IMG/VR virus record: IMGVR_UViG_3300031787_011232
Location: 1-64,000 of that record
DNA: 64,000 nt
Direction: 5' to 3' (one strand)
Source: a virus
Part shown: in pieces, positions 7,240 to 55,279 of the stretch
Layout of the letters: each line of letters opens with the position of its first letter
Numbering within the stretch: the stretch's first letter is position 1
Notes under the pieces: model-generated
What the model was told of the DNA's origin: nothing
The model's input: the letters and a program-made list of their open reading frames with translations, nothing else
Databases searched by the model: none
Translations under genes and position numbers: made by a program

Positions 7240-7260
7240 GTAGAGTTATATTTAATAGAT

Positions 7261-7289: not shown

Positions 7290-7297
7290 TATATAAT
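7269..7297 (+). promoter_or_regulatory. Promoter GGAAC-N18-TATAAT (plus strand)
   Basis: GGAAC 7269-7273, an 18-base spacer and TATAAT 7292-7297 precede the methyltransferase gene at 7315. It is a variant of the GAAAC class. Confidence 0.45.
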
Positions 7298-7314
7298 AGA
7301 ATAAAAATTAAAAC

Positions 7315-8016: not shown

Positions 8017-8035
8017 TTAAATAAATAAACAAAAA

Positions 8036-10081: not shown

Positions 10082-10082
10082 T

Positions 10083-11419: not shown

Positions 11420-11456
11420 AAATTATTAATAGAAAAATTCACTAATCTATTTTTAA

Positions 11457-11484
11457 GAAACTTTTTTTATTTTTTCCGTATAAT
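11457..11484 (+). promoter_or_regulatory. Promoter GAAAC-N17-TATAAT
   Basis: GAAAC 11457-11461, a 17-base spacer and TATAAT 11479-11484. The GT6 ATG follows after four bases (TATAATTTTCATG), the same short layout as at 2543. Confidence 0.6.
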
Positions 11485-11488
11485 TTTC

Positions 11489-13934: not shown

Positions 13935-15009
13935 AAAAAGGGCATTAATAACAGGTATGGAGGGACAGGACGGATCCTACCTCTATGATTTTTTAACAGA
14001 AAAAGGATATCAAGTATTTGGAACTAGAATGAAAAAAAGAGCACTAATAACAGGAATTAATGGTCAGGATGGATCATATCTTTCCGAATTTTTAATTGAT
14101 AAAGGGTATGAGGTATTCGGAACGGTAAAAAGAAATTCAGTTTCAGAAACCCAAACAACAAGAATAGATTCGGTATATCCCCAAATAAAAGACAATCTTA
14201 TCTATGCAGATCTTAATGATTTATCTTCTTTGATACATGCATTGAAGACATCGGATCCTCATGAAGTCTATAACTTAGCTGCTCAAAGTCACGTTAGAAT
14301 TTCTTTCGATCAGCCTCTCTATACTGCTCAGACCACAGGCGTAGGTGTTTTGAATATTCTAGAAGCTATAAGAATACATAATCCTAAAATTAAAATGTAT
14401 CAAGCATCTTCTTCCGAGATGTTTGGTAATTCTATAGACTCGGATGGATATCAAAGAGAAACTACTCCTATGAATCCCGTGTCTCCGTACGGATGCGCGA
14501 AGGTGTTTGGGTATAATATATGTCGAAACTATAGAAATTCCTACGGCCTTTTCGTTTCTAACGGAATACTTTTTAATCACGAATCCCCAAGGAGAGGAAC
14601 TAATTTCGTAACCAATAAAGTTTGTAAAGAAGCGGTAAGAATAAAATTAGGGTTGACCGACAAATTAAATTTAGGAAATTTAGATGCTACGAGGGATTGG
14701 GGGCATGCTAAGGATTATGTAGAAGCTATGTGGATTATACTTCAGCAGGATCATCCAGATGATTACGTTTGTTCTACTGGGATATCACATTCGGTTAAGG
14801 ATTTAGTAGAATATGTTTTTGGTAAATTGGAATTGGATTGGAAAAAATACGTAGTACAAGATCCAAAATTTTTAAGGCCTGAAGAGCTAAATGATTTAAA
14901 AGGTGATTGTTCTAAATTAAAATCCCACACTGGGTGGTCTCCTAAATACACTTTTGAATCTATGTTAGATGAAATGATAGAACATTGGTTAATCGAATTA
15001 TCTAAATAG
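13915..15009 (+). CDS. gmd: GDP-mannose 4,6-dehydratase with duplicated N-terminus
   Basis: The enzyme makes GDP-4-keto-6-deoxymannose, the Fcl substrate. Gmd motifs are clear: GINGQDGSYLSEFL, VYNLAAQSHVRISFDQP, ASSSEMFG, SPYGCAKVFGYN with Y-x3-K, and LGNLDATRDWGHA. The open frame begins at 13915, but the first 38 codons are a second, diverged copy of the first Rossmann beta-alpha unit. Internal ATG 14029 gives a normal-looking 326-residue protein and is probably the functional start. Whether the extra unit is translated or is a remnant of another gmd cannot be told. The 5' end overlaps fcl by 20 bases. Confidence 0.92.
   Translation: MTTQGNKKRALITGMEGQDGSYLYDFLTEKGYQVFGTRMKKRALITGINGQDGSYLSEFLIDKGYEVFGTVKRNSVSETQTTRIDSVYPQIKDNLIYADLNDLSSLIHALKTSDPHEVYNLAAQSHVRISFDQPLYTAQTTGVGVLNILEAIRIHNPKIKMYQASSSEMFGNSIDSDGYQRETTPMNPVSPYGCAKVFGYNICRNYRNSYGLFVSNGILFNHESPRRGTNFVTNKVCKEAVRIKLGLTDKLNLGNLDATRDWGHAKDYVEAMWIILQQDHPDDYVCSTGISHSVKDLVEYVFGKLELDWKKYVVQDPKFLRPEELNDLKGDCSKLKSHTGWSPKYTFESMLDEMIEHWLIELSK
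13933..14124 (+). repeat. Tandem duplication of the gmd N-terminal 31 codons
   Basis: Copy 1 is 13933-14025 and copy 2 is 14032-14124. Both encode K-K-R-A-L-I-T-G to V-F-G-T; 24 of 31 residues are identical, while the DNA has diverged visibly. This points to an old duplication or the fused relic of a second gmd. Confidence 0.85.
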
Positions 15010-15063: not shown

Positions 15064-16609
15064 GCAAAAAAAATCTCTTTTAAATTTTAGACAATTTAGC
15101 GGAATTTTCGAAGAAGGTGAACCTTCTGATGAAGGAGAAGGAGGAGAAGGTCTTAAGGCTATAGATATAGTCATAAATATTTTCTTTCAGATATATGGAA
15201 TCGTAGTTACGCGAATAGGAGGGTACAAGGATGCAGTAAAAGATTATCAGGCCATAGCAAATTCCGAAAACGAAAAGCGGGGAGAACTTATGGTAAATAC
15301 CATCAATAAAATATCCGATCTTGCTCTTACAAAAAATCCAGAATTAAAGGATTCAATAGGCCAATATAAAAAATCTATGGATTTTTTAAACAAGGCATAC
15401 GAAAAAATATTAACCGAAGATAAATCTCAGCTTTTTAATATAAAAAAGAAAATAAAAGATATAATTATCGATTATTTGGAATCCCTAGTAGATAACGTAA
15501 AAAATACAAAACTTCCAGAATTAGAAAAAAAGAATGAGTCTTTTGAATATTTTGGGGATTTAATTCTAGAGAAAGATTTATACATTAAAGAAAGAAGAAA
15601 AGTTATAAAATCTATTTTGCCTTTGAGAGCAAAAACAGTAGATCTAGCAGATAAATCTATATTTCCGGAGATTAAAACTATTGCTAAAGGTGCTTTGAAG
15701 AAGTATGATGCTATTATAAAAACCCTACAGGACGATAATTTATTCGATAAGAAAAAAAGAACTGAAAGAGCAGAAGAAATCCAAAATTCTAGATTTTCAG
15801 CTATTTCCATAGAGAATGAATTGAATTCTTCTCTTTCTAAAATAGCTATCAAATACGGGATAGCAAAAGAAATAGATGATCTTATAAAAAAATCTTTAGA
15901 GTCTCTAAATTCTGCGAATACCTCTTTAGAAAAAGTAGAAAAAAAACAAGCAGAGGAGTCGGAAAAAAGTAAAATAGAGGATTCCGAAAAAGAAGAAAAG
16001 AAAAAAGAAGATGGCTCTAAAGAAACTATAGAATCCTACGGGTGGAAATCTATAAAAGACGGGGAAGATAAAAAAGTCTACTATAAAAAACAAGATTGGG
16101 ATAATTCTAAAAAAATAGAAGATCAAAAGGATAAAATAGCAATAGGAAAAATAGTAAAAGGCTCCATCGACGAGGAAAAGAAAGAACTTAAAATATACAA
16201 CGAATCCGAGAAAAAAGAATTTAAGAAATCTTTTTCCGATATAATAGATAAATCCCAAGCTGATAAAAATTCTAAAGAAAAAATAGAAAAAGAAGAAAAA
16301 GAAGAAAAGAAAAAAGAAGGGTATAAGGAAATAAAAGAGGGGGATAAAAATCAGGATTCGGTAAAAGAAATAAAAAAGACATTGAATCGAATACTCCCTA
16401 AAGGTAGTTCTTTAGAAGAGAATGGGGATTATGATAAAAAATTAAAAGAATCTTTATCTACTGCAGTAAAATTAATGAAATCTCTAGGTATTTTAGATCC
16501 TAGTTACAAAGAAAATACTGGAAAAATAACAGTAGAATTCCAGAAAAAATTGGAAGAATATATAAAGAAGATAGAATCCGTTAGAAAGGATTTAAAAAAT
16601 TTAAGTTAA
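15062..16609 (+). CDS. Putative packaged protein with PG-binding-like C-terminus
   Basis: The 515-residue protein is highly charged and mostly helical. Its N-terminus contains FRQFSGIFEEGE, with I-F-E at 15-17 fitting a T4-type capsid-targeting and cleavage site. Residues about 290-425 are Lys/Glu-rich low complexity. The last 70 residues (IKKTLNRILPKG ... LKSLGILDPSYK-like ... ITVEFQ) resemble a peptidoglycan-binding type repeat. It heads an operon of three such proteins behind a GATATATA box. Packaging into the head is inferred; function is unknown. Confidence 0.65.
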   Translation: MQKKSLLNFRQFSGIFEEGEPSDEGEGGEGLKAIDIVINIFFQIYGIVVTRIGGYKDAVKDYQAIANSENEKRGELMVNTINKISDLALTKNPELKDSIGQYKKSMDFLNKAYEKILTEDKSQLFNIKKKIKDIIIDYLESLVDNVKNTKLPELEKKNESFEYFGDLILEKDLYIKERRKVIKSILPLRAKTVDLADKSIFPEIKTIAKGALKKYDAIIKTLQDDNLFDKKKRTERAEEIQNSRFSAISIENELNSSLSKIAIKYGIAKEIDDLIKKSLESLNSANTSLEKVEKKQAEESEKSKIEDSEKEEKKKEDGSKETIESYGWKSIKDGEDKKVYYKKQDWDNSKKIEDQKDKIAIGKIVKGSIDEEKKELKIYNESEKKEFKKSFSDIIDKSQADKNSKEKIEKEEKEEKKKEGYKEIKEGDKNQDSVKEIKKTLNRILPKGSSLEENGDYDKKLKESLSTAVKLMKSLGILDPSYKENTGKITVEFQKKLEEYIKKIESVRKDLKNLS

Positions 16610-25927: not shown

Positions 25928-26674
25928 ATGAGCGGATTTTTAGAAAAATATAACATGGATGATGTTTTTTTAAGAAATTTAATAGTTGCACTGTTAAATT
26001 CTCTTAATGACAGACTTAAGTATATCCAGGTTAACGATCAACAAGAAGTTTTGGAAGTTTATGTTCCTTTTTATTTTTCTCTAACCGGAGATGAGCCTTT
26101 TTTACAAGATAATTTTTTGGAATATGTAAATTGCAAAACGGACGAAATTCACGCAGAAGGAAATTACGATATAATACCTAGAGGAGTTGTTACTTTCGGG
26201 GGAGTTGATTTAGATACTGGGGGTCTTACGAATAAATTTACAAGAATGAATTATACCGTGGAAGATAAAACGGGACAGATGAAAACTTTTTCTTCCTACA
26301 CAAATTCTATCCCATTGAATGTTCCTTTCACGGTAGCTATGAAAACCGATACTCTTTTGGATGCTTTTAAGTTATTCCAGAGCGCTGTTACTATATTTTA
26401 CAAAACTTATACTTTTAGTTTTGAATATGAAGGGTTTAGAATTCCGGTTCAAGTCGGGTTTCCTGAACAATACGAGATAACAAAAAGTACAGAATTTACT
26501 TTTCAAAGCAACCCTCCTTTTATAGATTTTAATTTTTCTCTAGCTCTTGAAACTTATTTCCCTGAAAAAGATCTATCTACGGAAAGATTTAAAGGTAATA
26601 TTATGAGAAGCGGAATAAAGATGAATTTAAAAACGGGAGAAACTTCTTCAGATGACGGAAGAGAATTACTTTAA
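25928..26674 (+). CDS. Tail completion/sheath stabiliser, gp15-like
   Basis: The 248-residue protein has the layout of T4-type gp15 (about 270): an N-terminal helix, a beta-rich domain with RGVVTFGG, MNYTVEDKTG, and the segment IPLNVPFTVAMKTDTLLDAFKLF, which resembles the conserved region of the family in which the ring-forming domain precedes the counting helix. Position before the terminase and sheath genes fits T4 order (15-16-17-18). gp15 caps the tail tube and joins it to the head. The assignment rests on pattern and synteny, not an alignment. Confidence 0.5.
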   Translation: MSGFLEKYNMDDVFLRNLIVALLNSLNDRLKYIQVNDQQEVLEVYVPFYFSLTGDEPFLQDNFLEYVNCKTDEIHAEGNYDIIPRGVVTFGGVDLDTGGLTNKFTRMNYTVEDKTGQMKTFSSYTNSIPLNVPFTVAMKTDTLLDAFKLFQSAVTIFYKTYTFSFEYEGFRIPVQVGFPEQYEITKSTEFTFQSNPPFIDFNFSLALETYFPEKDLSTERFKGNIMRSGIKMNLKTGETSSDDGRELL

Positions 26675-29681: not shown

Positions 29682-32399
29682 ATGAATTTTTATCCCCAGG
29701 ACAAATTTCCTAAAAAAGGAACCCCAGTATATAACGGAAACGGTGAACAATACAATTTATCGGATCCCAGATATGCTTATCAGGATGGGCTACAAAATAC
29801 AAAAAAATATAAAGAAAGTTCTACTGGAAATCTTTATTCCACGATAGATTCTGCTTTAGCAAGAGCTAAACAAATTGGATGCGAAGGGTATCATCAAGTA
29901 ACCCAAGACGGAATTTCTTATTATAAGCCATGTTCAACTTCTAATGAATATGATTTAAGAATAGAGCAATTGGATAGTTCTCTTAATTTCACTTATATTG
30001 GGAATTATAGAGTTCTTACCTGGGATACCCCATTCGAAAGAGCTACATCATATAACGGATGGATAATAAATACTTTAAATAGTAACAACGACGGAGTTGC
30101 TTTAGATTCAGAAGATATTTCTATAGAATTTAGATATTCTGTAGATGGAAAAACCTGGTCTTTGTGGGAAAACGTTGGTACCGCATTAAACGGATTAACT
30201 AATAATTTTTCAGAGGTTTATCAAATACCTTTAGATCCAAATAATAAATTCTATCCGGAATTCAGATTTACCTCTATTTTAAAAAATCCAGATGGAACTT
30301 TTATAGAAATCCCGGATTCTCCTATGGATTCTAATATAATAATAACTCAATTTGAGCTAGATATAACTTATGGGGATTCCATAGAAATTCCTATAGTTTA
30401 TCCTTCACCTATATGTTCTAATGAAATATCCAAAAGACCTATAATATTTTCCGATTGCAAATTTACTTTTAGACCTTATAATGTCAATAAAGCAGTTAAT
30501 CTATATAACGATCTTAGTTATATGGTTAATAATATTTTTGGTTTTGATGTGAATTATTATTCGGTCCAACCCCAAGCAAGGGGGAGAGATGTTTCCCTCA
30601 GGGAATATACTATATTTGATGTCGTAGATGAAAAATGTGTCAAAGTAATGGTTCCGGGAAATCAATTTCCTGATAATAAAATAAATTTTGACCCTTTTGG
30701 ATTACAGTTCGATGAACCTTTTGAAATACATATAGATAAAAGATATTTTGAGCAAAATTTTGGTAATGGATCCCAGCCAAGAAAAAGAGATATAATTTAT
30801 TTTCCTTTAACTAATAGAATATACGAAATAAATTCTATGTATCTTTTTAGGGATTTTATGTATTCCCCGGTTTATTTCAAAATAGAGCTTAAAAAATATC
30901 AGCCTAAGAGCAATACGTATTACCAGGATCCTGCTTACAAAGAAGAATTGGAAGGGATAGCTTTAACTACGGAATCTTTATTTGGACAAGAAATATCGGA
31001 AGAGGAAAAGAAGATAGCAAAACCCCAACAATATGGAACTATAAATTCTCTAAGCCAGGACTTAGTTAGATCTTATATTTATAAAGATCTTTCTATAGTT
31101 GGGTACGATCTAAATAATAATTGGACTATAGTTTTTAATCACTATTACGATTTATCTTCCGCATTTAACTACGTTCCTCAATTTACTACGGAAGCAGGAA
31201 GCTATAGAAATGCAATAAGATATAAGCAATTTCCTAAATTATCTTCCGGAGAAGAACTTGCTTATACTTGTTGGTTTTCTATGAAAAATATTTACAACCC
31301 CCAAAGTCTTTCTAAGAGCTCTTATCCGGTAAGAAATATTTCTTTAGTTAGCAGTACTCCTAGCATTCTTACTTTCTCTTCTTCCCCTGCTAAGCACGGT
31401 CTTTCTACGTGGACTTCCTATTCAAATAATCCCGAAGGATATGTTTCTGTATTAGGAGATCAGACACATACCGGAGGATATAAAGTCAGAAGCGTAATAG
31501 ACGATTATACTTTTACCGTGGAAAATAAGTCTACTAATTTTTCACAAGTTCCTATAACTTGGAAAATGCAAAAGGCTCAAAGTAGAAATTTGATAGATGG
31601 AATTTATACTTTAGATGGAAACTCATACGGATTAAGAATTGATATAATACACTCAGGGGTAACTGACGATAAAGGAATAAATTTTTTAAATAGCGGAAGT
31701 TTTTTAATAAAAATAAATGATGAAGAATATAATTCTACTCTTCAATTTACACCTACCTATTCGGAATGGTACGGAATTGTATTTAATCTTTCCAATAAAT
31801 ATAAACAAATATCAATAAATGGATGGGCTTTGTCTTATAATCCCGAAGACACATTAGAACAATCCTCCAATCTCTCTTTGGTCCATCAAGATCTCAGAAG
31901 CTTCGTGGATAATTTCATTTTTGAAGCACCGCCAAATCCCCAGCCTTCTTATCTTTCTAGTTCGGATTCATATTTTGAATTGGGAGCATCAGGAAGTTTA
32001 TCGATAGAAAAAGAATTGCCTTATATTCCTGGACAATCTATTAACATCTATAAATCAGCTAGCAATTACCAAATCTCTAATGTCGTATCTTATAATTCTG
32101 TAACAGGATCTTTATCTTTTGACGACCCGAGTACTATAATAGGAGGAACTGGATCTACTGGATTTAATTGGATAGTTAATTTAACAGAAGATCCTTTTTA
32201 CGGAACCGATAATAATACTTACAAGATATGGACAGGACCAATATACTTAAGTAATGTGAGATTATTTAAAAATATGATAGATATAGATGTACAGTCCACG
32301 GTATTAAACCAAAATATAGTTAGAGACGAACAAAATTCAATAATAATTGATAATTGTAAGCCTTTATTAGGATTGCCTAAATTTGCAAGAAATAGATAA
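29682..32399 (+). CDS. Large virion protein, possible neck (gp14-like) and LamG-like domains
   Basis: The 905-residue protein is beta-rich. Residues about 245-415 include FEIHIDKRYFEQNFG, RDIIYFPLTNRIYEI and FKIELKKYQPKS, a pattern resembling T4-type neck protein gp14. Residues about 525-780 (YTCWFSMKN, YGIVFNLSN, KIWTGPIYLSNVRLF) look like a LamG/concanavalin-type carbohydrate-binding fold. The gene lies just upstream of gp16/gp17, near where T4 encodes its neck proteins. T4 gp14 is only about 256 residues, so this would be a fusion of a neck module with a surface lectin. Both assignments are by pattern. Confidence 0.45.
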   Translation: MNFYPQDKFPKKGTPVYNGNGEQYNLSDPRYAYQDGLQNTKKYKESSTGNLYSTIDSALARAKQIGCEGYHQVTQDGISYYKPCSTSNEYDLRIEQLDSSLNFTYIGNYRVLTWDTPFERATSYNGWIINTLNSNNDGVALDSEDISIEFRYSVDGKTWSLWENVGTALNGLTNNFSEVYQIPLDPNNKFYPEFRFTSILKNPDGTFIEIPDSPMDSNIIITQFELDITYGDSIEIPIVYPSPICSNEISKRPIIFSDCKFTFRPYNVNKAVNLYNDLSYMVNNIFGFDVNYYSVQPQARGRDVSLREYTIFDVVDEKCVKVMVPGNQFPDNKINFDPFGLQFDEPFEIHIDKRYFEQNFGNGSQPRKRDIIYFPLTNRIYEINSMYLFRDFMYSPVYFKIELKKYQPKSNTYYQDPAYKEELEGIALTTESLFGQEISEEEKKIAKPQQYGTINSLSQDLVRSYIYKDLSIVGYDLNNNWTIVFNHYYDLSSAFNYVPQFTTEAGSYRNAIRYKQFPKLSSGEELAYTCWFSMKNIYNPQSLSKSSYPVRNISLVSSTPSILTFSSSPAKHGLSTWTSYSNNPEGYVSVLGDQTHTGGYKVRSVIDDYTFTVENKSTNFSQVPITWKMQKAQSRNLIDGIYTLDGNSYGLRIDIIHSGVTDDKGINFLNSGSFLIKINDEEYNSTLQFTPTYSEWYGIVFNLSNKYKQISINGWALSYNPEDTLEQSSNLSLVHQDLRSFVDNFIFEAPPNPQPSYLSSSDSYFELGASGSLSIEKELPYIPGQSINIYKSASNYQISNVVSYNSVTGSLSFDDPSTIIGGTGSTGFNWIVNLTEDPFYGTDNNTYKIWTGPIYLSNVRLFKNMIDIDVQSTVLNQNIVRDEQNSIIIDNCKPLLGLPKFARNR

Positions 32400-33215: not shown

Positions 33216-35057
33216 ATGGCAGAAAATAAACAATCGCAAGAAACCCAAGACGAAAGTAATTATTGGTCTTCTGAAAGAGTAAACGAGCTTTTAAGGAAAG
33301 CTGACGAAGAAGGTTTAGATTTTAAAAGCGTAGAAAATCCATTCCATGATAATAATCCAGAATTTAAAAGAGCAAATATTTTATTCGAATACACGAAAGA
33401 AGAACTAATTGAGATTAAAAAATGTGCTGAGGACGTAACCTATTTTTCTAAATATTGTCAGGTAATGACAGATAACGGTCTTAACTATATAAATCTCAGA
33501 GATTATCAAACTTCCGTTCTAAAAGAATATCAAAATCACAGATTTAATATATTTTTAGCCCCCCGACAAGTTGGTAAATCTATAACTTCTTCTATAATTT
33601 TGGTTTGGTACCTTCTTTTCAACCACGATAAAAATGCTATGATTCTTGCGAACGTAGGTGATACCGCGGAAGAGTTAATGGATAAAATAAAACACATAAT
33701 AAAAGGACTTCCATTCTTTCTAAAACCCGGAATGCAGGTTAACAATGTCATGTCCATGAGGTTTGACAATGGATGTAGAATACTTGCTAAAACCACAACT
33801 AAAACTTCAGGTATCGGTTTTACTATTCACTTCCTATACATGGACGAATTTGCCCACATTAATCCTAATTTTATCGAAGCATTTTTTAGATCTACTTATC
33901 CCACAGTTTCCTCTTCTAAAGTTTCCAGAATTATAATAACTTCTACACCTAACGGTATGAATAAATTCTACGAAATTTATCAGTTAGCTCTAGAAGGTAA
34001 AAATAGTTTTAACCCGATAAGAGTAGATTGGTGGCAAGTACCAGGAAGGGATGAAGTTTGGAGAGAAAAGGAGATAGCTAACTTAGGAAGTGAAGAACTT
34101 TTTAATCAGGAATATGGAAATCAGTTTTTAAGTTCTTCTACTCTTCTTCTAGGATCGAATGAACTGAAAAAAATAAAGAAAAATGAATGCGAATTTTCGT
34201 GGAAAGAAATAGAATGTATTCACGATACTGGGATTAATTACGAAAATCTTATATGGCATCCCAAATTTAATTTAGATGAATGCGATCATCCGGGAAAGAA
34301 ATTTGTTTTTTCTATAGATCTTAGCGAAGGAAATAGAGGAGACTATACGGTTCTAAATATATTTAAAGTTTCTCCTTTACCGAAACAGGTCATAGAAAAA
34401 ATAAATGATTTTGAAGACGAATCCGATTTTTTTAGCCTAATACAGGTAGGATTGTTTAGAGAAAACAGTATCAATCTAGAGGATTTCACCAAATTAGTAA
34501 CTACTTTAATTCTTAAAGTATTTTCCGAAGAAAGAGTTAAGATAGCTCTCGAAATGAATTATAAAGGGGACATGTTCTATGAAAAAATAATATCCAAAGA
34601 TGATTTTTACGATGAAATGTTTCTTTTCACAAAACATACCGAAAATGCCAGAATAGCTAAACCAGGAATAAAATATAACGAAAAAGTAAAAATGAAATAC
34701 TGCGAGCTCCTAAGATCTTTAGTTAGGAGAGATAGAATAATTATAACTGAAAAAAAATATACGGTTTTAGAACTTTTTACTTTTGGACTTAATTCTAGAG
34801 GAACTTATTCAGCCCAAAGCGGCCACGACGATGTTGCCATGACCTTAGTTAATTTATCGGGTCTTTTTGATGGATATGATTTTGGGCAGATGGTAGGGGA
34901 GCTTTTTGATGAATTAGAGGATAGCGAATATAAAAATATAATCATAAATAAAATAGAAGGGTTAAACTCAATTGATTTTGATCCGGAAAGTGGATCTAAA
35001 AATATTTATGTGACCAAAGAGGGTAAAAGTTATAAGGATTTTAGCGGTTTAATCTAA
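33216..35057 (+). CDS. 17: Terminase large subunit (gp17)
   Basis: The 613-residue packaging motor (T4 gp17 has 610) pumps DNA into the prohead and cuts concatemers. Walker A APRQVGKS is at 115-122, Walker B FLYMDEFAHI at 206-215, and motif III ITSTPNGMNKFY follows. The RNase H-like nuclease domain has FSIDLSEG (D368), ALEMNYKGD and the C-terminal GHDDVAM near 536. No intron or intein interrupts it. Confidence 0.97.
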   Translation: MAENKQSQETQDESNYWSSERVNELLRKADEEGLDFKSVENPFHDNNPEFKRANILFEYTKEELIEIKKCAEDVTYFSKYCQVMTDNGLNYINLRDYQTSVLKEYQNHRFNIFLAPRQVGKSITSSIILVWYLLFNHDKNAMILANVGDTAEELMDKIKHIIKGLPFFLKPGMQVNNVMSMRFDNGCRILAKTTTKTSGIGFTIHFLYMDEFAHINPNFIEAFFRSTYPTVSSSKVSRIIITSTPNGMNKFYEIYQLALEGKNSFNPIRVDWWQVPGRDEVWREKEIANLGSEELFNQEYGNQFLSSSTLLLGSNELKKIKKNECEFSWKEIECIHDTGINYENLIWHPKFNLDECDHPGKKFVFSIDLSEGNRGDYTVLNIFKVSPLPKQVIEKINDFEDESDFFSLIQVGLFRENSINLEDFTKLVTTLILKVFSEERVKIALEMNYKGDMFYEKIISKDDFYDEMFLFTKHTENARIAKPGIKYNEKVKMKYCELLRSLVRRDRIIITEKKYTVLELFTFGLNSRGTYSAQSGHDDVAMTLVNLSGLFDGYDFGQMVGELFDELEDSEYKNIIINKIEGLNSIDFDPESGSKNIYVTKEGKSYKDFSGLI

Positions 35058-35126: not shown

Positions 35127-38100
35127 ATGGCAAGTAAAATTAAAATAGACTACTCTCAGTTTAGAGCTTCTGGAGTTTATACATTGGAGTTTGACGCTTC
35201 CCAAAACGTTATACTAACCTCTCAAACGATCCGTTTGGTCGTAGGATTCTCTAACGTAGGACCTTTTAATACCCCGGTATATATACCGGATGCTACAACA
35301 ATGATAGCTATATTTGGAGATATAGATAGATCTTTAGAAAATAAAGGATCTTTCTTCCACAGATCGGTTTTCACTTGTTTATCTCAAGGTCCTGTTTTTG
35401 CGTTAAATCTTCTTAATTTAAATAACGATGAATCTAGCGCATCCCCGGATGTAGTTACCTACAAATCGTTTTCTTTAGATACTGAGCAGTACAACGGGGA
35501 AATTACGGAAAGACTTTATTCTTCTTATTATAACAAAGAAAGATTTTGGTTTCCAGATCCTGAGTATTTCTTAGCTACTCTTAGCGTAGCAGATCAAGGT
35601 AAACTTTTTAACCTAACAAATCTGGGAAAAAGCCCAATGAGTGTAATCGTTAGAAAATCTACCGATTCAGTCAATCCTCTTTTAGGATTTAATATTTTTG
35701 CTATAGATTGGTACGGAGCAAATAACGTTCCTTCTTTTATGCACCCTTACGATTACATATCTGATTATTTTATTGATGTAATAGCTGTTTCGGGTGATTG
35801 GACCGATTATCAGGCTCTATCCGTAGATCCTAAATGGAGTTCTTTCTTTACCAATAATGGATTCGTAAAAAGTCAAATAGATAATTTCTTGTCTAACCAA
35901 GATGTGAATATAGTAACTTCTGTTACCGGATGTATAATTCCGGATTTCGTAGATCTTAACGGTAATAATCAATACATTCAAACTTTAGTAAATCAAAATA
36001 CTCCTTCTACAGGTTTATTCTGTGCTATAGATGAACAAGCTTTTGATGATATCTGTAATAGTACTTATAAAATAGATCTAGTAGGAAACCATTTAATAGA
36101 TGAACTTTCTGGAGATAGAGATCTTGCAAGTCCTAGGATAAAATTCTTAAGCTATGATCAACTTTTGATAGCAGACTATCTTTACACCCAAAATGTTGTG
36201 GGTGTTACTGGTTCAGCTGCTTTTCCTCCTATTTCTCCGGCAGGAGCAACTGTTTTCACAACAGGTACTAAAGTAGGTACTTTATTCTCTTTAACCCCAG
36301 GAATTACTGGATCTACTTCGGGAATTATTTATCAATCTTTTGCGGCATACGATCCTAATGCTACAGACGGGGGATACCACTATTTACAAACTTCGGGAAC
36401 TACAGGAGCTACGGGAGGAATTTCTTCAGCTTCCCAGAAAGCAGAATTAAGTAATTTCTTAAGTGTCACTTCTTCTAACGATCAAAAATTTATTTTAGGG
36501 GTAGTTCAGGGAATTTCTGGATTGAATAATCCTACTACCAACCAATTTAATGAAGGAGATTTAGTTAAACTTAAAGTCGTAGAAACTAAATTTGTTAGTT
36601 CGGAATTAAGAATTAAATTTTTCCATCCTTTAGATACCGCAGCATTTAAATCATTAGGGGTTTCGGTTAATCCTACTTTTAATTTAACATCTTATAATAC
36701 GGGAGCTTCTGGAAGTAACAGACCTTTCTATACCGATTCATATCAATTTGGTAATTCTGATTATTTAGATATAGTAAGTATAAGTACTCCTAATGGGGTA
36801 ACTGGGCCAAATGCTCCTTTAGGGGTTTCTAATTCTTTGGTGGGCTATAACGCTTCAGATCTTTATCAGGATAATAAATTTTCTGAGATAGTAGACGGAG
36901 ATTATATTTGGCTAAATCCTACCGGTTCTTCTATACAGTATTTAGGTTTTCAACAAACTAAAGACAAAGACGATTTCAATCTTGTTTACACTAGAGCATT
37001 TACAAATGTTTCTAGAAATAACACTACTATTACTAACATAGCAACTTTCGGAGGAGGTATAAATCCATCTTATGCTTCAGATAATTCGGGATTACCAGTA
37101 GCAGATCAGAAGATTGATTTGATCTCACAAGCAGGGGGAATATCCGAATATGTGGATATATTAGCTCAGGTGAGTCCTACCACATTTACTGTTCAGGAGA
37201 TTAATGGAAATGTTCCTTTCTCTGTAGGAGATTTGATCGTATCTACCGATTTAGATATATGCACTCCTTCTACTGGAAATAGACAGTATAGACTTGCTAA
37301 AATTACTACGGTAGCTGCTACGACAACTTCCGGAATATACACCGTTATTTGTGCGAGACCGATCTATTATTACCCAGGAATCGGTACGGAAAGAGTTCAG
37401 AAATTTAAATCTATTCCTGAATTTACTGTTTCTTTTGATTTTACATACCTTTCAGGATTTACGATGAAAGAATCTCATCGACCAAATGGAACAGATGCTA
37501 GAATTTCTGAAATTTTAGATGTTATGTATGACACTAATATAGCTAAAACCTTAGCAGCTAAAGATATAATTAGCTTTAGATACGTTGTAGATACGTTCTC
37601 CGGACAAATCTTACCTAACTCTAAATACCAATTAAGTAAATTGGCTAAGAATAGACAACAAGCTATGGCTTTAATAAATGCACCTTCTATAGCTCAATTC
37701 AGAAATAGCACGGATCCTAGATTTACAGATGCTCCTACGGCGGTAAATCCTTTCCCTGCTCTTAAAACTAAATATATAGCAGACGGAGGAAATTTATCTT
37801 TAAATCCTTCTTATACATTTAGTTTACCTACCGAAGATGATGGATCTAAATTCTGTGGATTCTTCTCTCCTTATATTACAGTAAGAGAGTCTAATAGAAA
37901 TATAAGTGTCCCACCTGCAGCTTTCGTTTCTAATAATTACGTTAGAAAATTTGCATCCGGCGAACCTTATTCTATAGTTGCAGGACAAAAGAGAGGAGTC
38001 CTTTCGGGAGCTTCTATAGTAGGAGTAGAATATGATTTTACCGATGAGGATAGAGGAAATTTAGAGCCCTTCGGAATAAATCCTATAATAAAAAGAACAG

Positions 38101-38495
38101 GGGTGGGTGTTGTTATATTCGGTAACCAAACCGCATATCAAACCGTAAATTCTGCATTTAATTTACTTCATGTAAGAGATTTATTAATTTCGGTAGAAAC
38201 TGATGTTCAGACTATCCTTTCTAACTATCTATTTGATTTTAATGAAGATTCAATCCGATTAGAGATTAAAACATTAGTAGATAACTATTTAGATGGGGTT
38301 CAATCCGGAGGAGGGATTTATGCTTATCAAACTATTATGGATACTTCTAACAATACACCAGAAATCATAGATATGAATATGGGTATTATAGATATTATTA
38401 TAGAACCAGCTAGAGGAATACAGAAATTTATAAACAGAATTACTGTTACTAGAACTGGGGGTATTGCTTCTGGAGGATTTACTCAATTTGTTTAA
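35127..38495 (+). CDS. 18: Tail sheath protein (gp18), enlarged
   Basis: The 1122-residue protein has a sheath N-terminal domain (ASGVYTLEFDASQNVILTSQ, VVGFSNVGPFNTPVYI) and the conserved C-terminal polymerisation domain (NLLHVRDLLISVETDVQTILSNYLFD, then IEPARGIQKFINRITVTRT). The contractile sheath drives infection. It is far longer than T4 gp18 (659); extra mass lies in the middle, about residues 360-760, rich in Gly/Thr/Ser beta strands, probably surface-exposed inserts. Location after gp17 and before gp19 matches T4 order. Confidence 0.93.
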   Translation: MASKIKIDYSQFRASGVYTLEFDASQNVILTSQTIRLVVGFSNVGPFNTPVYIPDATTMIAIFGDIDRSLENKGSFFHRSVFTCLSQGPVFALNLLNLNNDESSASPDVVTYKSFSLDTEQYNGEITERLYSSYYNKERFWFPDPEYFLATLSVADQGKLFNLTNLGKSPMSVIVRKSTDSVNPLLGFNIFAIDWYGANNVPSFMHPYDYISDYFIDVIAVSGDWTDYQALSVDPKWSSFFTNNGFVKSQIDNFLSNQDVNIVTSVTGCIIPDFVDLNGNNQYIQTLVNQNTPSTGLFCAIDEQAFDDICNSTYKIDLVGNHLIDELSGDRDLASPRIKFLSYDQLLIADYLYTQNVVGVTGSAAFPPISPAGATVFTTGTKVGTLFSLTPGITGSTSGIIYQSFAAYDPNATDGGYHYLQTSGTTGATGGISSASQKAELSNFLSVTSSNDQKFILGVVQGISGLNNPTTNQFNEGDLVKLKVVETKFVSSELRIKFFHPLDTAAFKSLGVSVNPTFNLTSYNTGASGSNRPFYTDSYQFGNSDYLDIVSISTPNGVTGPNAPLGVSNSLVGYNASDLYQDNKFSEIVDGDYIWLNPTGSSIQYLGFQQTKDKDDFNLVYTRAFTNVSRNNTTITNIATFGGGINPSYASDNSGLPVADQKIDLISQAGGISEYVDILAQVSPTTFTVQEINGNVPFSVGDLIVSTDLDICTPSTGNRQYRLAKITTVAATTTSGIYTVICARPIYYYPGIGTERVQKFKSIPEFTVSFDFTYLSGFTMKESHRPNGTDARISEILDVMYDTNIAKTLAAKDIISFRYVVDTFSGQILPNSKYQLSKLAKNRQQAMALINAPSIAQFRNSTDPRFTDAPTAVNPFPALKTKYIADGGNLSLNPSYTFSLPTEDDGSKFCGFFSPYITVRESNRNISVPPAAFVSNNYVRKFASGEPYSIVAGQKRGVLSGASIVGVEYDFTDEDRGNLEPFGINPIIKRTGVGVVIFGNQTAYQTVNSAFNLLHVRDLLISVETDVQTILSNYLFDFNEDSIRLEIKTLVDNYLDGVQSGGGIYAYQTIMDTSNNTPEIIDMNMGIIDIIIEPARGIQKFINRITVTRTGGIASGGFTQFV

Positions 38496-38549: not shown

Positions 38550-39104
38550 ATGGCAGGATTACCACATTTTTCTAACTCCCAGGCTTCTTTAAATAAATAT
38601 GAGCCGGTATATCTTAACCAGTTTGAGGCACAAATAACTTGTCCCCCGGGGGTAGGAGGAGGAAATCTTCTTATAGAGCACGTAACAAAAGTTAGTGGTT
38701 TAGCTGTAGATAAAAGCCCAGGATTAGCTACTCAAAAATATAAATTCGCAAAAAGGAATTATGCTGGAGCTAAACCTTCAGAAACTACTATGAACGTTAG
38801 TATTTCATTTACGGTCAACCTAAACGATGCTAACTCTATGTATATCTTTAAAACCCTTAGACAATGGTCAGATTTGATCTACAATCCTTTAACAGGAGCT
38901 ATGGGGCTTAAAAAAGACTATACAGGAAATATTTTAATATCTATCTTTAATAAACAAGGAGATGTTTATAGAAGAATTAATTGTAGAGATGTTTTTCCTT
39001 TAAAAGCTCTTCCTGAAATGGGATTGAATTACACTGACGAAACGATATACACAGTTAATGATATGGAATTTGCTGTTGATTATTGGGATGATTTATTTTT
39101 ATAA
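38550..39104 (+). CDS. 19: Tail tube protein (gp19), copy 1
   Basis: The 184-residue protein has the gp19 pattern: MAGLPHFSNSQ, EPVYLNQFEAQI, VSGLAVDKSPG, MNVSISFTVNLND and LRQWSDLIYNPLTGAMGLKKDY. Hexamers stack to form the inner tail tube. It is the first of two tandem homologues, separated by 12 bases. The long identical central block shows that the pair arose by duplication. Confidence 0.93.
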   Translation: MAGLPHFSNSQASLNKYEPVYLNQFEAQITCPPGVGGGNLLIEHVTKVSGLAVDKSPGLATQKYKFAKRNYAGAKPSETTMNVSISFTVNLNDANSMYIFKTLRQWSDLIYNPLTGAMGLKKDYTGNILISIFNKQGDVYRRINCRDVFPLKALPEMGLNYTDETIYTVNDMEFAVDYWDDLFL

Positions 39105-39116
39105 TTTTTAATTAAT

Positions 39117-39695
39117 ATGGCCGGACTTCCACATTTTAGTAATTCTACTGCTTCTAGGCTTAACTATGAACCTGTTTATCTTAACCAATTTGAGGTTATA
39201 ATAAATCCTCCTGCAGGAATACCTCTTGCTGCTCAAAGATTCAAAGGAGAAGGAATTTTAGCTCAAGGAGTAAAAAGTATTTCAGGGTTAGCTGTTGATA
39301 TTGCTCCTTCTGCAACTATAGATCAAAATTATAAATTTGCTACCAGAAGATATGCTGGGGGAGAACCTTCAACCACGGATATGACAGTATCTATGGAGTT
39401 TGAGGTTAATTTAAATCCTGAAAGTAATTCCATGGAAGTTTATAAAATTCTTAGACAATGGTCAGATTTAATCTATAATCCACTTACTGGAGCTATGGGA
39501 CTTAAAAAAGATTATGTGGGATCTATGGTTATATCAATATTCAATAAAAGAGGAGACGTATTTAGAAGAGTTTCTATACCTTCGTGTTTTCCTTCTGAAG
39601 CTATTCCTGCAATGGATTTAGATTATGAGCAAGCAAACAATTATAGTATATCCCTTTCATGGATATGCGATTACTGGACAGACACATTTTTATAA
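39117..39695 (+). CDS. 19: Tail tube protein (gp19), copy 2
   Basis: The 192-residue paralogue of the preceding gene shares MAGLPHFSNS, EPVYLNQFEV and LRQWSDLIYNPLTGAMGLKKDY, but differs in the loops (PAGIPLAAQRFKGEGILAQ insertion) and C-terminus. It may form a distinct ring, such as the tube initiator next to the baseplate (in T4 gp54 has the tube fold), or a minor tube subunit. A strong terminator follows. Confidence 0.9.
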   Translation: MAGLPHFSNSTASRLNYEPVYLNQFEVIINPPAGIPLAAQRFKGEGILAQGVKSISGLAVDIAPSATIDQNYKFATRRYAGGEPSTTDMTVSMEFEVNLNPESNSMEVYKILRQWSDLIYNPLTGAMGLKKDYVGSMVISIFNKRGDVFRRVSIPSCFPSEAIPAMDLDYEQANNYSISLSWICDYWTDTFL

Positions 39696-43429: not shown

Positions 43430-44056
43430 ATGAAAAGACAAAACAACATTCAATTCCTAGCTGAATCTTTCATCGAGACAAAAAGCTCAAAATCCTTTAA
43501 AAGTCTGTATGAAAGATTAAAGCCAGGAATAACAAACCACTGTTACCTTATTCTTAAAAGCCAAGAACTTGCTGAAGATGCATTTTCCAATACTATGACG
43601 AAAATATGGCAAAAAATACATCAGTACGACAAAGATAGAGCAAATTTTTCAACCTGGACTTATAATATAGCTAGGAACGAATCTCTCTTAATTCTAAAAA
43701 CCGGAAAAAGATTCTTTTCCCATAGCGACGAAGAAATGGAATATTTTTCTAATAAATCCACAATAGGAGATTTAGGTGGTCAATATTTTATGGAAGAAGA
43801 TCCAGCATATTCTTTTCTTTTCGAGGATAAAAATATAGATACTGTTTATGAGTCTGTTTTAGATGAGATAAGAGAATTGCCTGAAATTTACAGAGAAATT
43901 ATGGTGGATAGAGAAATAAATGGGATGAAATATAAAGACATTGCAGAAAAATACGGGATAAAGAAAAGATCCATTGCTACAAGAATAAGAAGAGCAAGAG
44001 CAAGAATAAGAAAAAAAATGGACCCGAAACAAACCGTTAAAAAGAAAATAAAATAA
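43430..44056 (+). CDS. ECF-like sigma-70 family factor
   Basis: The 208-residue protein has sigma region 2 (residues about 20-85: ELAEDAFSNTMTKIWQKI, FSTWTYNIARNESL) and region 4 (about 140-195: LDEIRELPEIYREIMVDREINGMKYKDIAEKYGIKKRSIATRIRRARARI), as in ECF factors. It should direct RNA polymerase to a promoter class. The window also encodes a gp55-like sigma at 50533, so two factors may run different temporal classes. The extra acidic segment between regions 2 and 4 is unusually long. Confidence 0.85.
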   Translation: MKRQNNIQFLAESFIETKSSKSFKSLYERLKPGITNHCYLILKSQELAEDAFSNTMTKIWQKIHQYDKDRANFSTWTYNIARNESLLILKTGKRFFSHSDEEMEYFSNKSTIGDLGGQYFMEEDPAYSFLFEDKNIDTVYESVLDEIRELPEIYREIMVDREINGMKYKDIAEKYGIKKRSIATRIRRARARIRKKMDPKQTVKKKIK

Positions 44057-46912: not shown

Positions 46913-47584
46913 ATGATAGACCAGAATGATGAAATATTAAATATAGACGGGGGTAGCTCTTTAAATTCTAGCCCAGAAATATCCGGGGGAGATTCTTCTT
47001 ATCCTTTAAGTCCTCAGTCTTCTGGATCTACAGGAGGATTTTTTACCAATTATACCAATGTTGCTTTATTAAATAGGGATCTAAGAAGAATAAATGCAAC
47101 TTTTAGAAGATTTAACGATTCTCCTAAAGTTAAATTTATAAAAGAATATTACTCAGTAATAAGAAAAGAAGAGACTATGGATAAAATATCTCTTGCAGAT
47201 TTTTTCCATCCTTTACAATCTTTTTCGGATTACCAAAAACAAACTATAGTAATAGATCCATTAACTACGATAAATTTAGATCCTTCCTTTTATTCTACGG
47301 AAGGAGAGGTTTCTTTAATAGTAGCTAAAGCAGAATATCTTCCAGAAGCAGAAAATAATGAGAAAATTTTATTTTGGGATTATGGAAATACCCCGAGAAA
47401 AATTATGGGATCTATTATGATATTGTCAGGAGCTATAAAAAATGGTTCTTCTTGGCACGGATGGGACGTAGATCCATTTTCGGATTACGAACATTCTTCT
47501 CCCCCGGATATAAACGAGGGAGGAATATCTTTCACTAATCCCACAGAAAAGACCGTAAAATTAACCATTTTAACCGCTAACTAA
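46913..47584 (+). CDS. Putative virion protein, paralogue of next gene
   Basis: The 223-residue protein has a Ser/Gly-rich N-terminus (to about 45) and then a beta-rich fold with VSLIVAKAEYLPEAE, ILFWDYGNTPRKIMGSIMILSG and GGISFTNPTEKTVKLTIL. The next gene has the same order of strands, so the two are homologous. The late operon and overlap of one base support joint assembly. Possibly fibre or baseplate accessory proteins; function unknown. Confidence 0.6.
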   Translation: MIDQNDEILNIDGGSSLNSSPEISGGDSSYPLSPQSSGSTGGFFTNYTNVALLNRDLRRINATFRRFNDSPKVKFIKEYYSVIRKEETMDKISLADFFHPLQSFSDYQKQTIVIDPLTTINLDPSFYSTEGEVSLIVAKAEYLPEAENNEKILFWDYGNTPRKIMGSIMILSGAIKNGSSWHGWDVDPFSDYEHSSPPDINEGGISFTNPTEKTVKLTILTAN

Positions 47585-48069
47585 TGGCAACTAGACCTGT
47601 AAAATGCCCATATGATGAAGATTCCGGATTTAGATTTAATAGAGGATTTTTAGTTTTAGATACCCCTACTACAAATTATCCGGAAAAATTTATTAGAATG
47701 GACGATATATTTGAAGAAATAACTTCTTATTCTAAACTTAAAATAAATCTTCCGCCTTCTTCTTGTTATCTTTTAAGCCAAACCGATATATCAGACAGCG
47801 AAGGATTTGTAAATTTCATATTAGTAAAATCCACTTTTCCGGAAGGTACTTTAGAGACCAGAAAATATTTAACCTGGGAATATGACGGGGGAATTTACAA
47901 TATGGGAAAAATTATGTTACTTACAGGATCTGATATTACCGATGTTTCTTCCCAGCCGTTAGGGTGGAATATATCTCAGCCGGGAACCGTTTACGATAAT
48001 GGAGGAATAATATTTTGTAATCCCCATTCAGATATAACAATTAAATTAGAAATTCTTGTTGCAAGATAA
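47584..48069 (+). CDS. Putative virion protein, paralogue of previous gene
   Basis: The 161-residue protein mirrors the upstream one: FVNFILVKSTFPEGT, YLTWEYDGGIYNMGKIMLLTGS and GGIIFCNPHSDITIKLEIL. It lacks the Ser/Gly-rich extension. The stop-start overlap ATAATGG style of coupling (one base) suggests equal synthesis. Function unknown. Confidence 0.6.
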   Translation: MATRPVKCPYDEDSGFRFNRGFLVLDTPTTNYPEKFIRMDDIFEEITSYSKLKINLPPSSCYLLSQTDISDSEGFVNFILVKSTFPEGTLETRKYLTWEYDGGIYNMGKIMLLTGSDITDVSSQPLGWNISQPGTVYDNGGIIFCNPHSDITIKLEILVAR

Positions 48070-52029: not shown

Positions 52030-53652
52030 ATGGCAGGATTCGTAGAAAATAATAAACCTTCAAGCCCGGGAGCTATAGATCGGATAAGACAATCCGTAAA
52101 AAATCTAAGCACCTTTGGTATGAAGTACGAAGATATGGTCATAAGAAATTCTCAAGCAGTAGGGGTGACTGAGGCCAGCTTTTTAAACAAAGACGGACAC
52201 GCAGGAAAAGAAGATGAAAATTTATCGTGGGCTTTAGCAAAACAAGACGTAACTACAAAACAGTATATTACCTATTTCGATAAGGATTATAAAGGAAAAA
52301 GAGATTACTTAAGAAAATTTTCTCTAAACCCCGAGATAGAATGGGTTTTAGATACTATCTGCGACGAATCAATCTCTTACGACCCTGCAAATTATTTTGC
52401 TTATCCTTCTTTCTTAGATCTTACCGACATAAATGAAAAATTTAAGAATGATCTTTATGATTCATATAAAAAATTATATGATATATGGGGATTTTCCGAT
52501 GATATAACCGCTTGGCAATATTTTAGGCAGTTTTTAGTAGATGGATTTTTATCTTTCGAAATAATATTTGACGATGATGGGAAAAATATAATAGGATTTA
52601 AAGAATTAGATCCGGTTACTCTTGTTCCTAGTGTAGAAAAACAGCCAGATGGAAGTTTTTTAAGTACTTGGACCCAATATCCTCAGGACCCTAAAAAAAG
52701 AAGAATTCTATACGAACCCCAGATAATATACATCTCTTATGCTAAGGGGAATGCTATTTCTAGAATAAGTTACGTAGAAAGATTGATAAGACCTTTTAAT
52801 ATTCTAAGAACAATAGAATACACCAGAGTTATATGGTCGGTTATGAATTCTCAATTTAGAATGAAAATGACAGTTCCGGTTGGAACTAAATCGATGCAGA
52901 AAGGTATGCAAACTCTAGGAGAATTAATGAGTATTTATAAGGAGGATTTTGATTTAAATGATCAGACCGGGGAATTAATGATAGACGGTAAACCTAAAAT
53001 ACAGTTTTATAAGAATTATTTAATGCCTTCGGGACAAGGAGGAACCCCTACTATAGAGCCAATAAGTAACGAAGGGCCAAATTTAAATGATTCTTCTCCT
53101 TTAAATTATTTTTTCGATAGATTTATACAGGAAAGTAAGATTCCCCCATCTAGATTTTCTACTCCCGAGGGCGGAAGCTCGGCCGCTTACTCGAACGTCG
53201 CGGAAGGTTTCGATAAAGACGAGATAAGATTTTTTAAATTTATAGAAAGACTAAGAACAGTTTTTCAAGATATCATGATAAAACCTCTTTGGGTTCAAAT
53301 GGTTAAAAAACACAAAGAGTTAGAAAAAGATTTCGTATTTAAATCCCAATTGGGTTTAGATTTTTTTTCGGACAATCCGTTTAAGCTAAATCAGGAGATA
53401 GATGTTATAAACAAAAGAAAAGAATCCGTAACTGCTATGATTGGATTAATGGGAGACGACGAAAAACCATATTTTTCCGTTCCCTTTCTAATAGAAAATT
53501 TCTTAGGAGTAGATAAAAAAGATCTAAAAGTAAACGAAGAAGTAAAAGAAAGAAAGAAAAAAGAAAAAGAAAAAGAAGGTAAAAAAGAGGGGGAAGAAGG
53601 AGCTGCAGAAGGAGCTGAAGGAGGAGGAGAAACCCCGGCGGTAACAATATAA
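52030..53652 (+). CDS. 20: Portal protein (gp20), copy 1
   Basis: The 540-residue portal (T4 gp20 has 524) forms the dodecameric DNA gate and nucleates the head. Family features are MKYEDMVIRNSQAV, FDKDYKGKRDYLRKFS, EIEWVLDTICDESI, WQYFRQFLVDGFLSFEII, GFKELDPVTL, IIYISYAKGN and QFYKNYLMPSGQGG. The C-terminus is a Lys/Glu then Ala/Gly tail ending ETPAVTI. A second homologous gene follows after seven bases. A GC-rich codon patch covers about 53158-53215. Confidence 0.94.
   Translation: MAGFVENNKPSSPGAIDRIRQSVKNLSTFGMKYEDMVIRNSQAVGVTEASFLNKDGHAGKEDENLSWALAKQDVTTKQYITYFDKDYKGKRDYLRKFSLNPEIEWVLDTICDESISYDPANYFAYPSFLDLTDINEKFKNDLYDSYKKLYDIWGFSDDITAWQYFRQFLVDGFLSFEIIFDDDGKNIIGFKELDPVTLVPSVEKQPDGSFLSTWTQYPQDPKKRRILYEPQIIYISYAKGNAISRISYVERLIRPFNILRTIEYTRVIWSVMNSQFRMKMTVPVGTKSMQKGMQTLGELMSIYKEDFDLNDQTGELMIDGKPKIQFYKNYLMPSGQGGTPTIEPISNEGPNLNDSSPLNYFFDRFIQESKIPPSRFSTPEGGSSAAYSNVAEGFDKDEIRFFKFIERLRTVFQDIMIKPLWVQMVKKHKELEKDFVFKSQLGLDFFSDNPFKLNQEIDVINKRKESVTAMIGLMGDDEKPYFSVPFLIENFLGVDKKDLKVNEEVKERKKKEKEKEGKKEGEEGAAEGAEGGGETPAVTI
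53591..53652 (+). repeat. Near-identical 3' end shared by the two portal genes (copy 1)
   Basis: 53591-53652 matches 55221-55279 base for base except for one extra GGA codon. The rest of the two genes has diverged widely, so this tail looks gene-converted or strictly conserved. Confidence 0.9.
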
Positions 53653-53659
53653 AAAAGAA

Positions 53660-55279
53660 ATGGCAGGATTTTTAGATCATCAACAACCAAATACATCAGC
53701 TTTCGGTAATATTATAAGAAATCTGGGAAAGATATCTAGTTTCGGGATGAAATATGACGATATGGTTGTTAGAAATTCTCAAGCTATCGGTAAAACTGAA
53801 AGTTCTTTTTTTAATTCCGAAGGGACTGGATTCACCCAAGATGATGCTTTTAAATGGATACTTTCACATCAAGATGTAAAGATAAGAAAATATATTGCTT
53901 ATTTTGATAGAGATTATATAGAAAAAAGAAAATTTCTTAGAAAATTTTCTCTTAACGGGGAAATAGAATTTATATTAGATACTGTTTGCGATGAATCTAT
54001 AACATATGACGATAGAAATTTCTTTGCTACCGCTTCTACTTTAAATATAGATTTAAAGGATAAAATATTAGAAAAAATAACAGATCACTATAATAGGCTT
54101 TATAATGTATTTGGATTTCAACAATCTAATTTAGCCTGGCAGTATTTTAGACAACTTTTGATAGATGGATTTTTAGCTTTCGAAATCATTTATGATAACA
54201 AAGGGAAAGAAATTATAGGATTTAAAGAATTAGATCCTACGTCATTACAACCGGTTGTCGAAAAAATAGGGGAAAAAGATTATCAGCAATTCTGGATACA
54301 GTACCCTGCAAATCCACAGATGTCCAGAAAACTTACTAACGAACAAATAGTTTACATATCATATGCAAAAGGAAATTCTGTTTCTAGAGTTAGTTATGCA
54401 GAAAGATTAATAAGATCTTATAACATTCTTAAAATAATGGAAAACACCAGAATTATTTGGAATGTTATGAATGCTTCATATAGACTTAAATTCGTAATTC
54501 CTACGGGAACTCAATCTCAACAAAAAGCTTTACAGACTCTAGGGCAAATTATGTCGAATTACAAAGAAGATATATCCATAAATGACAATTCTGGGGAATT
54601 AACGATAAACGGTAGACCCAAAGTTCAATTTTATAAAAATTACCTTTTTCCAGAAAAAGATGGTCAAACCCCCGATATATCTTCCTTAAATCCTAGTGGT
54701 CCTGATTTTAATATAATGGACAACGTTCTCTATTTCTTTAATAAATTAAAGATGGATTCGAAGATCCCTTATGCTAGATTTTCTTCCCGGTCTTCAGCTC
54801 CTATAAACTATCAGACTGGAGTAGATCAGATGCAAAGAGACGAAATAAGATTTGAAAAATTCTTAAGAAGACTTAGATCTATTTTTCAAGAAATATTAGT
54901 TAAGCCTCTTTACATCCAGATGTGTTTAGATCATCCCGAACTGGCAAAAGATAGGAATTTTAAAAGTAAATTAGGGTTAAACTATCACAGAGAAAGTGAA
55001 TTGGAAGAAATGATACAAATGGGGGGATTCACTAAAAGAATAGAATTTGTTAACGGATTATCCGAGATAAAAATGAAAATAGGAGAAACCGAAACTCCTT
55101 ATTTCGATAAAGAATTTCTCATTAATAGATTTTTGGGAATTACTCCGGATCAAGCTAAAATGAATGAAGACTATAAGAAAAAAGAGGAGAAAGAAGCTAA
55201 AAAAGCGGAGAAAAAAGGAGGGGAAGAAGGAGCTGCAGAAGGAGCTGAAGGAGGAGAAACCCCGGCGGTAACAATATAA
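53660..55279 (+). CDS. 20: Portal protein (gp20), copy 2
   Basis: The 539-residue paralogue of the preceding portal is collinear throughout: MKYDDMVVRNSQAI, FDRDYIEKRKFLRKFS, EIEFILDTVCDESI, WQYFRQLLIDGFLAFEII, GFKELDPTSL and QFYKNYLFPEKDGQ. Both copies look intact, without stops or lost motifs, so both may be functional. They could form a mixed ring, or one could serve a different assembly stage. A terminator follows 26 bases after the stop. Confidence 0.93.
   Translation: MAGFLDHQQPNTSAFGNIIRNLGKISSFGMKYDDMVVRNSQAIGKTESSFFNSEGTGFTQDDAFKWILSHQDVKIRKYIAYFDRDYIEKRKFLRKFSLNGEIEFILDTVCDESITYDDRNFFATASTLNIDLKDKILEKITDHYNRLYNVFGFQQSNLAWQYFRQLLIDGFLAFEIIYDNKGKEIIGFKELDPTSLQPVVEKIGEKDYQQFWIQYPANPQMSRKLTNEQIVYISYAKGNSVSRVSYAERLIRSYNILKIMENTRIIWNVMNASYRLKFVIPTGTQSQQKALQTLGQIMSNYKEDISINDNSGELTINGRPKVQFYKNYLFPEKDGQTPDISSLNPSGPDFNIMDNVLYFFNKLKMDSKIPYARFSSRSSAPINYQTGVDQMQRDEIRFEKFLRRLRSIFQEILVKPLYIQMCLDHPELAKDRNFKSKLGLNYHRESELEEMIQMGGFTKRIEFVNGLSEIKMKIGETETPYFDKEFLINRFLGITPDQAKMNEDYKKKEEKEAKKAEKKGGEEGAAEGAEGGETPAVTI
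55221..55279 (+). repeat. Near-identical 3' end shared by the two portal genes (copy 2)
   Basis: Partner of 53591-53652; encodes the Gly/Glu/Ala tail ending E-T-P-A-V-T-I. Confidence 0.9.

Follow-up and report, generated by a model that had tools for sequence, protein, structure and literature searches.

The window analyzed here is a 64,000-nucleotide stretch of a 68,767-bp metagenomic viral contig. It contains two genes for T4-type portal proteins (gp20), referred to below as P1 and P2, with the following features:

52030-53652 (+): P1, first portal (gp20) gene, 540 aa
53590-53652 (+): 3' end of P1, encoding an acidic Gly/Ala/Glu tail that ends in -ETPAVTI, near-identical to the 3' end of P2
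53653-53659 (+): spacer of 7 nt between the P1 stop and the P2 ATG
53660-55279 (+): P2, second portal (gp20) gene, 539 aa
55220-55279 (+): 3' end of P2, converted from the P1 tail or vice versa

The original prediction, made from the sequence, had described two tandem, intact portal genes; its coordinates and lengths are exact, and both genes prove to be full-length and T4-type by Pfam and PHROG. Against Pfam Portal_T4 (PF07230, cut-off 22.9 bits), P1 scores 186 bits over profile positions 7-429 of 433 and P2 scores 222 bits over positions 8-433 of 433, and both match the PHROG 213 portal family. The AlphaFold models, which are monomers only and of moderate confidence (pLDDT 62 for P1 and 64 for P2), have T4 gp20 as their top Foldseek match, in 9mkb/6uzc with an E of 2e-19 for P1 and with an E of 9e-19 for P2 (prob 1.00 and TM about 0.5 in each case). 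Aligned to T4 gp20, both proteins contain the complete set of clip, stem, tunnel loop, bent helix, and crown, and they are 49-51% identical to each other over ~500 residues.

Distribution of paired and single portals

Scans of IMG/VR with P1 and P2 recovered 56 distinct genomes in which both genes are complete, and in these the pair is invariably adjacent, in the order P1-P2, on one strand, and 1-23 nt apart. Loci with one gene of the pair are truncations at contig ends, with no other exception. A deeper branch of about 25 further contigs also carries a P1-P2 pair, so that both copies are present in related genomes, a check that the original prediction had proposed. No third portal was found in two-portal contigs of up to 434 kb, each of which has exactly two portal matches. 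The short gap here and in relatives, the constant gene order, and the shared strand make it probable that P1 and P2 are co-transcribed as one transcript.

A sister group of 78 loci has one portal each; a single locus among them with an apparent second portal turned out to contain one portal split by a frame change. A single full-length portal is also found in the huge phages LR756500, LR756502, LR756504, and LR745206 and in the Prevotella phages Lak. The statement that a single portal gene is the norm in T4-like phages holds across INPHARED: the P1 tblastn search matched 1,925 places in 1,923 records, and the P2 search 2,143 places in 2,141. Only LR756501 and LR756503, both 735,411 bp long and with identical match coordinates, have a second place, and that in LR756501 was rejected as a second portal, being a 58-position portal-like fragment. 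This record has a 101-aa open frame at 15166-15351 (-) that resembles the C-terminal part of a portal and is distant from the true portal. Because the place counts nearly equal the record counts and the extra place is a fragment, INPHARED appears to hold no other full-length pair; at the sensitivity of tblastn, no second full-length T4-type portal was found in its other records, about 1,900 of which have a matching portal. The bacterial genome contigs searched gave one 50-residue match, in a Spirochaetaceae bin. One portal gene per genome is therefore the usual state for gp20 and not a defining one, as genomes of the two-portal clade have two each.

Divergence of the copies and their shared tails

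In a tree of 91 portals, P1 forms one clade (SH-aLRT 96) and P2 another (SH-aLRT 87), with the single-copy portals outside. By this tree, P1 and P2 are the products of one old duplication, sister to the single-copy relatives, and the position of the single copies outside both clades implies that the duplication is older than the whole two-portal group. Both copies are under strong purifying selection, with a median dN/dS over 41 close pairs of 0.016 in P1 and 0.014 in P2; relaxed selection on one copy, part of the outcome that the original prediction had named as speaking against it, is thus absent. The values near 0.015 in both genes, and the lack of broken copies in the complete pairs, also led to the rejection of a pseudogene or decaying copy. 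Pairwise distances in P1 and P2 follow each other with a slope of 1.01 and an r of 0.966, indicating equal rates, and the same distance correlation for neighbouring gene pairs gives r of 0.47-0.90. As mirror-tree correlations are inflated by common phylogeny and protein length, we take the P1-P2 rate correlation as support rather than proof.

With domain limits from the T4 structure paper (PMC4493910), within-copy conservation is very similar along P1 and P2 (P1/P2: N-terminal region 0.77/0.74, wing 0.77/0.74, a5 0.94/0.93, clip 0.83/0.82, tunnel 0.72/0.72, crown 0.61/0.60), while in the stem helices a7 and a8 P2 is the more conserved. The two proteins are most alike in a5 (74%) and a8 (67%); outside the crown and tail they are least alike in the tunnel loop (29%), a7 (32%), and the channel loop (36%). 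Across 37 representative lineages, 23 positions are fixed differently in P1 and P2. These are enriched in the channel loop, a7, and tunnel loop, which together span 51 columns and account for 10 of them (odds ratio 8, p 2e-5); several of the type-II changes between the copies are conservative (E/D, L/V, K/R). In T4, the channel loop, stem helix a7, and tunnel loop face the DNA channel, and the tunnel loops touch those of adjacent subunits. The clip-tip positions 295 and 296 (T4 numbering) are Q and K in both P1 and P2; the corresponding R295 and K296 at the clip tip of T4 have been shown to be important for the motor, and the T4 clip is the part of the portal that binds terminase and neck.

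The C-terminal tails behave differently from the rest. That the genes have diverged widely except for their last 60 bases, a further part of the original prediction, is borne out: 58/60 aligned bases are identical in the tail, with one 3-base gap, versus 76% of aligned bases with 272 gap positions over the first 1500 nt. A 36-base exact piece of the shared tail occurs twice in the window, against a chance expectation of 0.00. The P2 tail matches that of its own P1 at 58/60 bases and those of P2 orthologues from relatives with 86% identical cores at 44/57 and 45/60. With the P2 tail thus resembling its neighbouring P1 tail more than the P2 tails of close relatives, the shared 3' end is, on this comparison, the result of recent within-genome gene conversion. 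It is not the remnant of a recent duplication, since the duplication is old and the tail alone has been recently copied. The last 8 amino acids of P1 and P2 are likewise more alike within a genome than under permutation (0.52 versus 0.35, with 0/5000 permutations as high), whereas the cores lack within-genome pairing (0.515 versus 0.513).

A short hydrophobic motif (VTL, VTI, FTL, or FKL) closes most P1 and P2 tails, and most single-copy portal tails have a hydrophobic last residue; in T4 gp20, the C-terminus sits in the crown. Two lineages have lost the motif from P1 (L013/16/21/45 and L039/40/44/47/127), and at least three have lost it from P2 (L035/36/37/61, the deep branch, and L091). Two genomes lack the strict motif in both copies, yet their tails end in TL or I. 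The end motif is never recognisably lost from both copies, and which copy retains it varies. This constant retention in one copy would be expected if both tails act in the same assembled object.

Copy number of the tail tube and other vertex genes

The other vertex and tail genes identified in the window are:

25928-26674 (+): candidate gp15-like tail terminator (PF16724, E 0.0015, under cut-off), single
29682-32399 (+): neck protein with gp14-like domain (PF11649 T4_neck-protein, 29.8 bits; PHROG 679), single
33216-35057 (+): large terminase, gp17 (PF03237, 66 bits), single full-length copy
35127-38495 (+): tail sheath, gp18-like (PF17482, E 6e-6, just under cut-off), single copy
38550-39104 (+): T1, first tail-tube-fold gene, 184 aa (PHROG 45/3629 tail tube, E 3e-8)
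39117-39695 (+): T2, second tail-tube-fold gene, 192 aa

T1 lies directly after the sheath gene and is followed by T2, to which it is 55-58% identical. This tube pair (38550-39695) is a parallel duplication that was absent from the original prediction. PHROG 45 and 3629 are matched by 9/10 members of the tube family (E to 4e-12); no member matches Pfam Phage_T4_gp19 above the cut-off, the best E being 0.029, in 2/10. A PDB profile search with the tube places T4 gp54 (E 0.0065) ahead of gp19 (E 1.2). Two tube copies are present in 15/16 two-portal records searched, the contig of the window included, and one copy in 6/7 single-portal records; the two records without a match are fragments, that of the two-portal set being 141 kb long. 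T1 and T2 each form one clade that includes the deep branch. When a 430-kb two-portal genome (G002) was compared with LR756500, 106 G002 ORFs had a match, and the only full-length genes in a two-to-one relation were portal and tube. In the main clade, mean charge differs between the copies, P1 being acidic (-10) and P2 near neutral (+1), and T2 acidic and T1 neutral. Since this difference is absent in the deepest branch, charge complementarity is not used as main evidence.

The other vertex genes are not doubled. Each genome has one full-length capsid protein (Gp23) and one full TerL; protease, sheath, gp14, and gp15 are undoubled, and no sheath paralogue was found in the window or in G002. 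With tandem tubes and portals among otherwise single vertex genes, it is the two proteins lining the conduit at either end of the neck that are doubled, and the remainder is single.

Several further observations concern this part of the genome. The gp14-like domain (residues ~330-420) lies inside a 905-aa protein much bigger than T4 gp14. A divergent Gp23-fold paralogue of ~300-370 aa, perhaps a vertex protein, occurs apart from the major capsid gene in eight genomes (G001, G002, G003, G006, G008, G009, G010, and G012). A second complete vertex or capsid was rejected, there being one full-length Gp23 per genome and the paralogue occurring also in G012, which has a single portal. A 261-aa ORF like the ATPase part of the large terminase (L291:13514-14296 (-) in G002) was rejected as a second packaging motor; its restriction to G001 and G002, the two largest two-portal genomes, means that it is not tied to the portal pair. 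The structural block contains one more pair of tandem paralogues, the third (46913-47584 and 47584-48069; about 27% identical in G002), which is present in the main two-portal clade and has no family match; no homologue was found in the single-portal LR756500 or G012.

Elsewhere in the window, a ribosomal protein bS21 gene (472-651 (+); PF01165 match at 474-626) directly follows a ClpA/B-like C-terminal ORF. The bS21 phages of PMC9723584 differ from this arrangement in having their bS21 gene on the reverse strand of the structural block. A long sugar-nucleotide/glycosyltransferase-like block (1825-15009) contains UDP-galactopyranose-mutase-like and fucosyltransferase-like ORFs and methyltransferases, and ends with a GDP-mannose-dehydratase-like ORF (13915-15009 (+)) whose first ~35 residues (RALITG..GQDGSY..F) are repeated in tandem. 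A sigma-factor-like ORF with the look of the sigma-70 family lies at 43430-44056 (+).

A proposed two-subunit DNA conduit and its alternatives

We consider it about an even call that P1 and P2 co-assemble in one heteromeric portal ring at a single packaging vertex, and that the tube, which was duplicated on the same branch of the phage tree, is likewise built from two subunits. Made side by side from adjacent genes, the two portal proteins would assemble jointly into a single portal, the simplest geometry for which is an alternating 6+6 dodecamer. The T4 axis runs from the gp20 dodecamer through the gp13 dodecamer and the gp14 hexamer (PMC12270204) to the hexameric tail tube, and by alternation of P1 and P2 the portal would gain the sixfold symmetry of the tail. 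In the tube, T1 and T2 could be mixed within hexamers or form distinct rings. The C-terminal tail may act as a docking peptide on the inside, with the scaffold as one possible partner. The concentration of subunit differences in the channel loop, a7, and tunnel loop suggests a possible gain from such an arrangement, namely a two-state DNA channel or valve in which the capsid and motor contacts would be the same in both subunits. Somewhat short of an even chance goes to the stronger version, that the DNA conduit of this clade of giant T4-like phages is obligately heteromeric, with an alternating portal whose true symmetry would be C6, like that of the sixfold neck and tail, and a two-protein tube, both arisen on the same branch. 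Among the options that the original prediction raised without choosing between them, the mixed dodecamer is thus favoured, while stage-specific portals, a second vertex, and a neck role are disfavoured. A second vertex or tail is disfavoured by the single capsid protein, TerL, protease, sheath, gp14, and gp15.

The main rival is that P1 and P2 form separate homododecamers for different particles or stages (initiation versus packaging, or two capsid types), with T1 and T2 in separate homomeric tubes or segments. We regard this as possible, though rather unlikely. With every gp20 functional domain kept in both proteins, including the terminase-binding clip, each could work alone; the solved portals of relatives are all homomeric (Sun et al. 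PMC4493910, PMC12270204); and equal rates and common constraint would also arise from two homomeric rings with the same partners. What weakens it is the single set of those partners in each genome, the adjacency and probable co-transcription of the two genes, and the pattern of tail losses: were an end motif required in every ring, neither copy could afford to lose it, yet the motif is missing from P1 in some lineages and from P2 in others.

An unlikely alternative in our assessment is the recruitment of one copy to a different ring, such as an additional connector, a neck, or an internal ring. The recruit would probably be P1, leaving P2 as the portal and T2 or T1 as tube initiator or terminator. 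P2 is closer in score than P1 to the single-copy relatives and scores above it to the portal family (about 220-234 versus 187-202 bits), and its greater conservation in a7 and a8 points the same way, as do the T4 tube-fold paralogues at separate positions (gp19, gp48, and gp54) and the profile match to gp54 before gp19. Recruitment would be expected to bring lost constraint in at least one interface, but the overall rates are equal, the constraint profiles are nearly the same, the clip-tip residues are kept in both copies, and the tail motif has been lost from both copies rather than one. The recruited role that the original prediction had allowed for one copy is thus unsupported, given the whole gp20 architecture and similar conservation profile, clip included, of P1 and P2.

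Retention for dosage alone, with interchangeable copies supplying more portal protein, is very improbable: the constraint profiles are alike and the tails are homogenised by conversion, but the cores are not homogenised, about 50% divergence and the 23 fixed differences are held across the 37 lineages, and a portal needs just 12 copies per head. An assembly or chimera artefact of one metagenome, conceivable for a metagenomic viral contig, is ruled out, since dozens of independent assemblies, which reach 434 kb, contain the pair with diverged sequences.

The portal is a textbook case of a homomeric ring mismatched in symmetry to its capsid. A clade in which portal and tube are doubled while the rest of the vertex stays single offers a natural experiment in which to ask if a twelvefold ring has to be homomeric, and one that also bears on the role of the C-terminal tail and the working of the channel loops. 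No report of paralogous phage portals was found in the non-subscription literature searched. As far as these records and this literature go, two conserved portals together with two conserved tubes are unreported, although both protein families are known.

The closest structural reference is T4 gp20 (PF07230; PDB 3ja7, 6uzc, 9mkb), with which the pair shares family and domain order (wing, stem, clip, tunnel loop, crown), as well as the gene order gp17-gp18-gp19-gp20; T4, however, builds a homododecamer from a single portal gene (PMC4493910), where two conserved genes are found here. The nearest named INPHARED relatives, the portals of LR756500, LR756502, LR756504, LR745206, and Lak, are 34-47% identical over most of the protein, and these phages combine their single full-length portal with a single tail tube in all five records searched. 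Two tube forms in one phage are known from SPP1, whose gp17.1 and gp17.1* both come from one gene by frameshift; here they would come from two genes 55-58% identical, and SPP1 has no portal counterpart. T4 gp19, gp48, and gp54 and the tube proteins of contractile injection systems are old tube-fold paralogues of differing sizes that occupy separate rings, which by analogy would count against a mixed tube; T1 and T2, in contrast, are of near-equal length and split only in the two-portal clade. The proteolipid ring of the fungal V-ATPase, which went from homomeric to obligately heteromeric after a gene duplication, compares with the portal pair in mechanism only, without homology.
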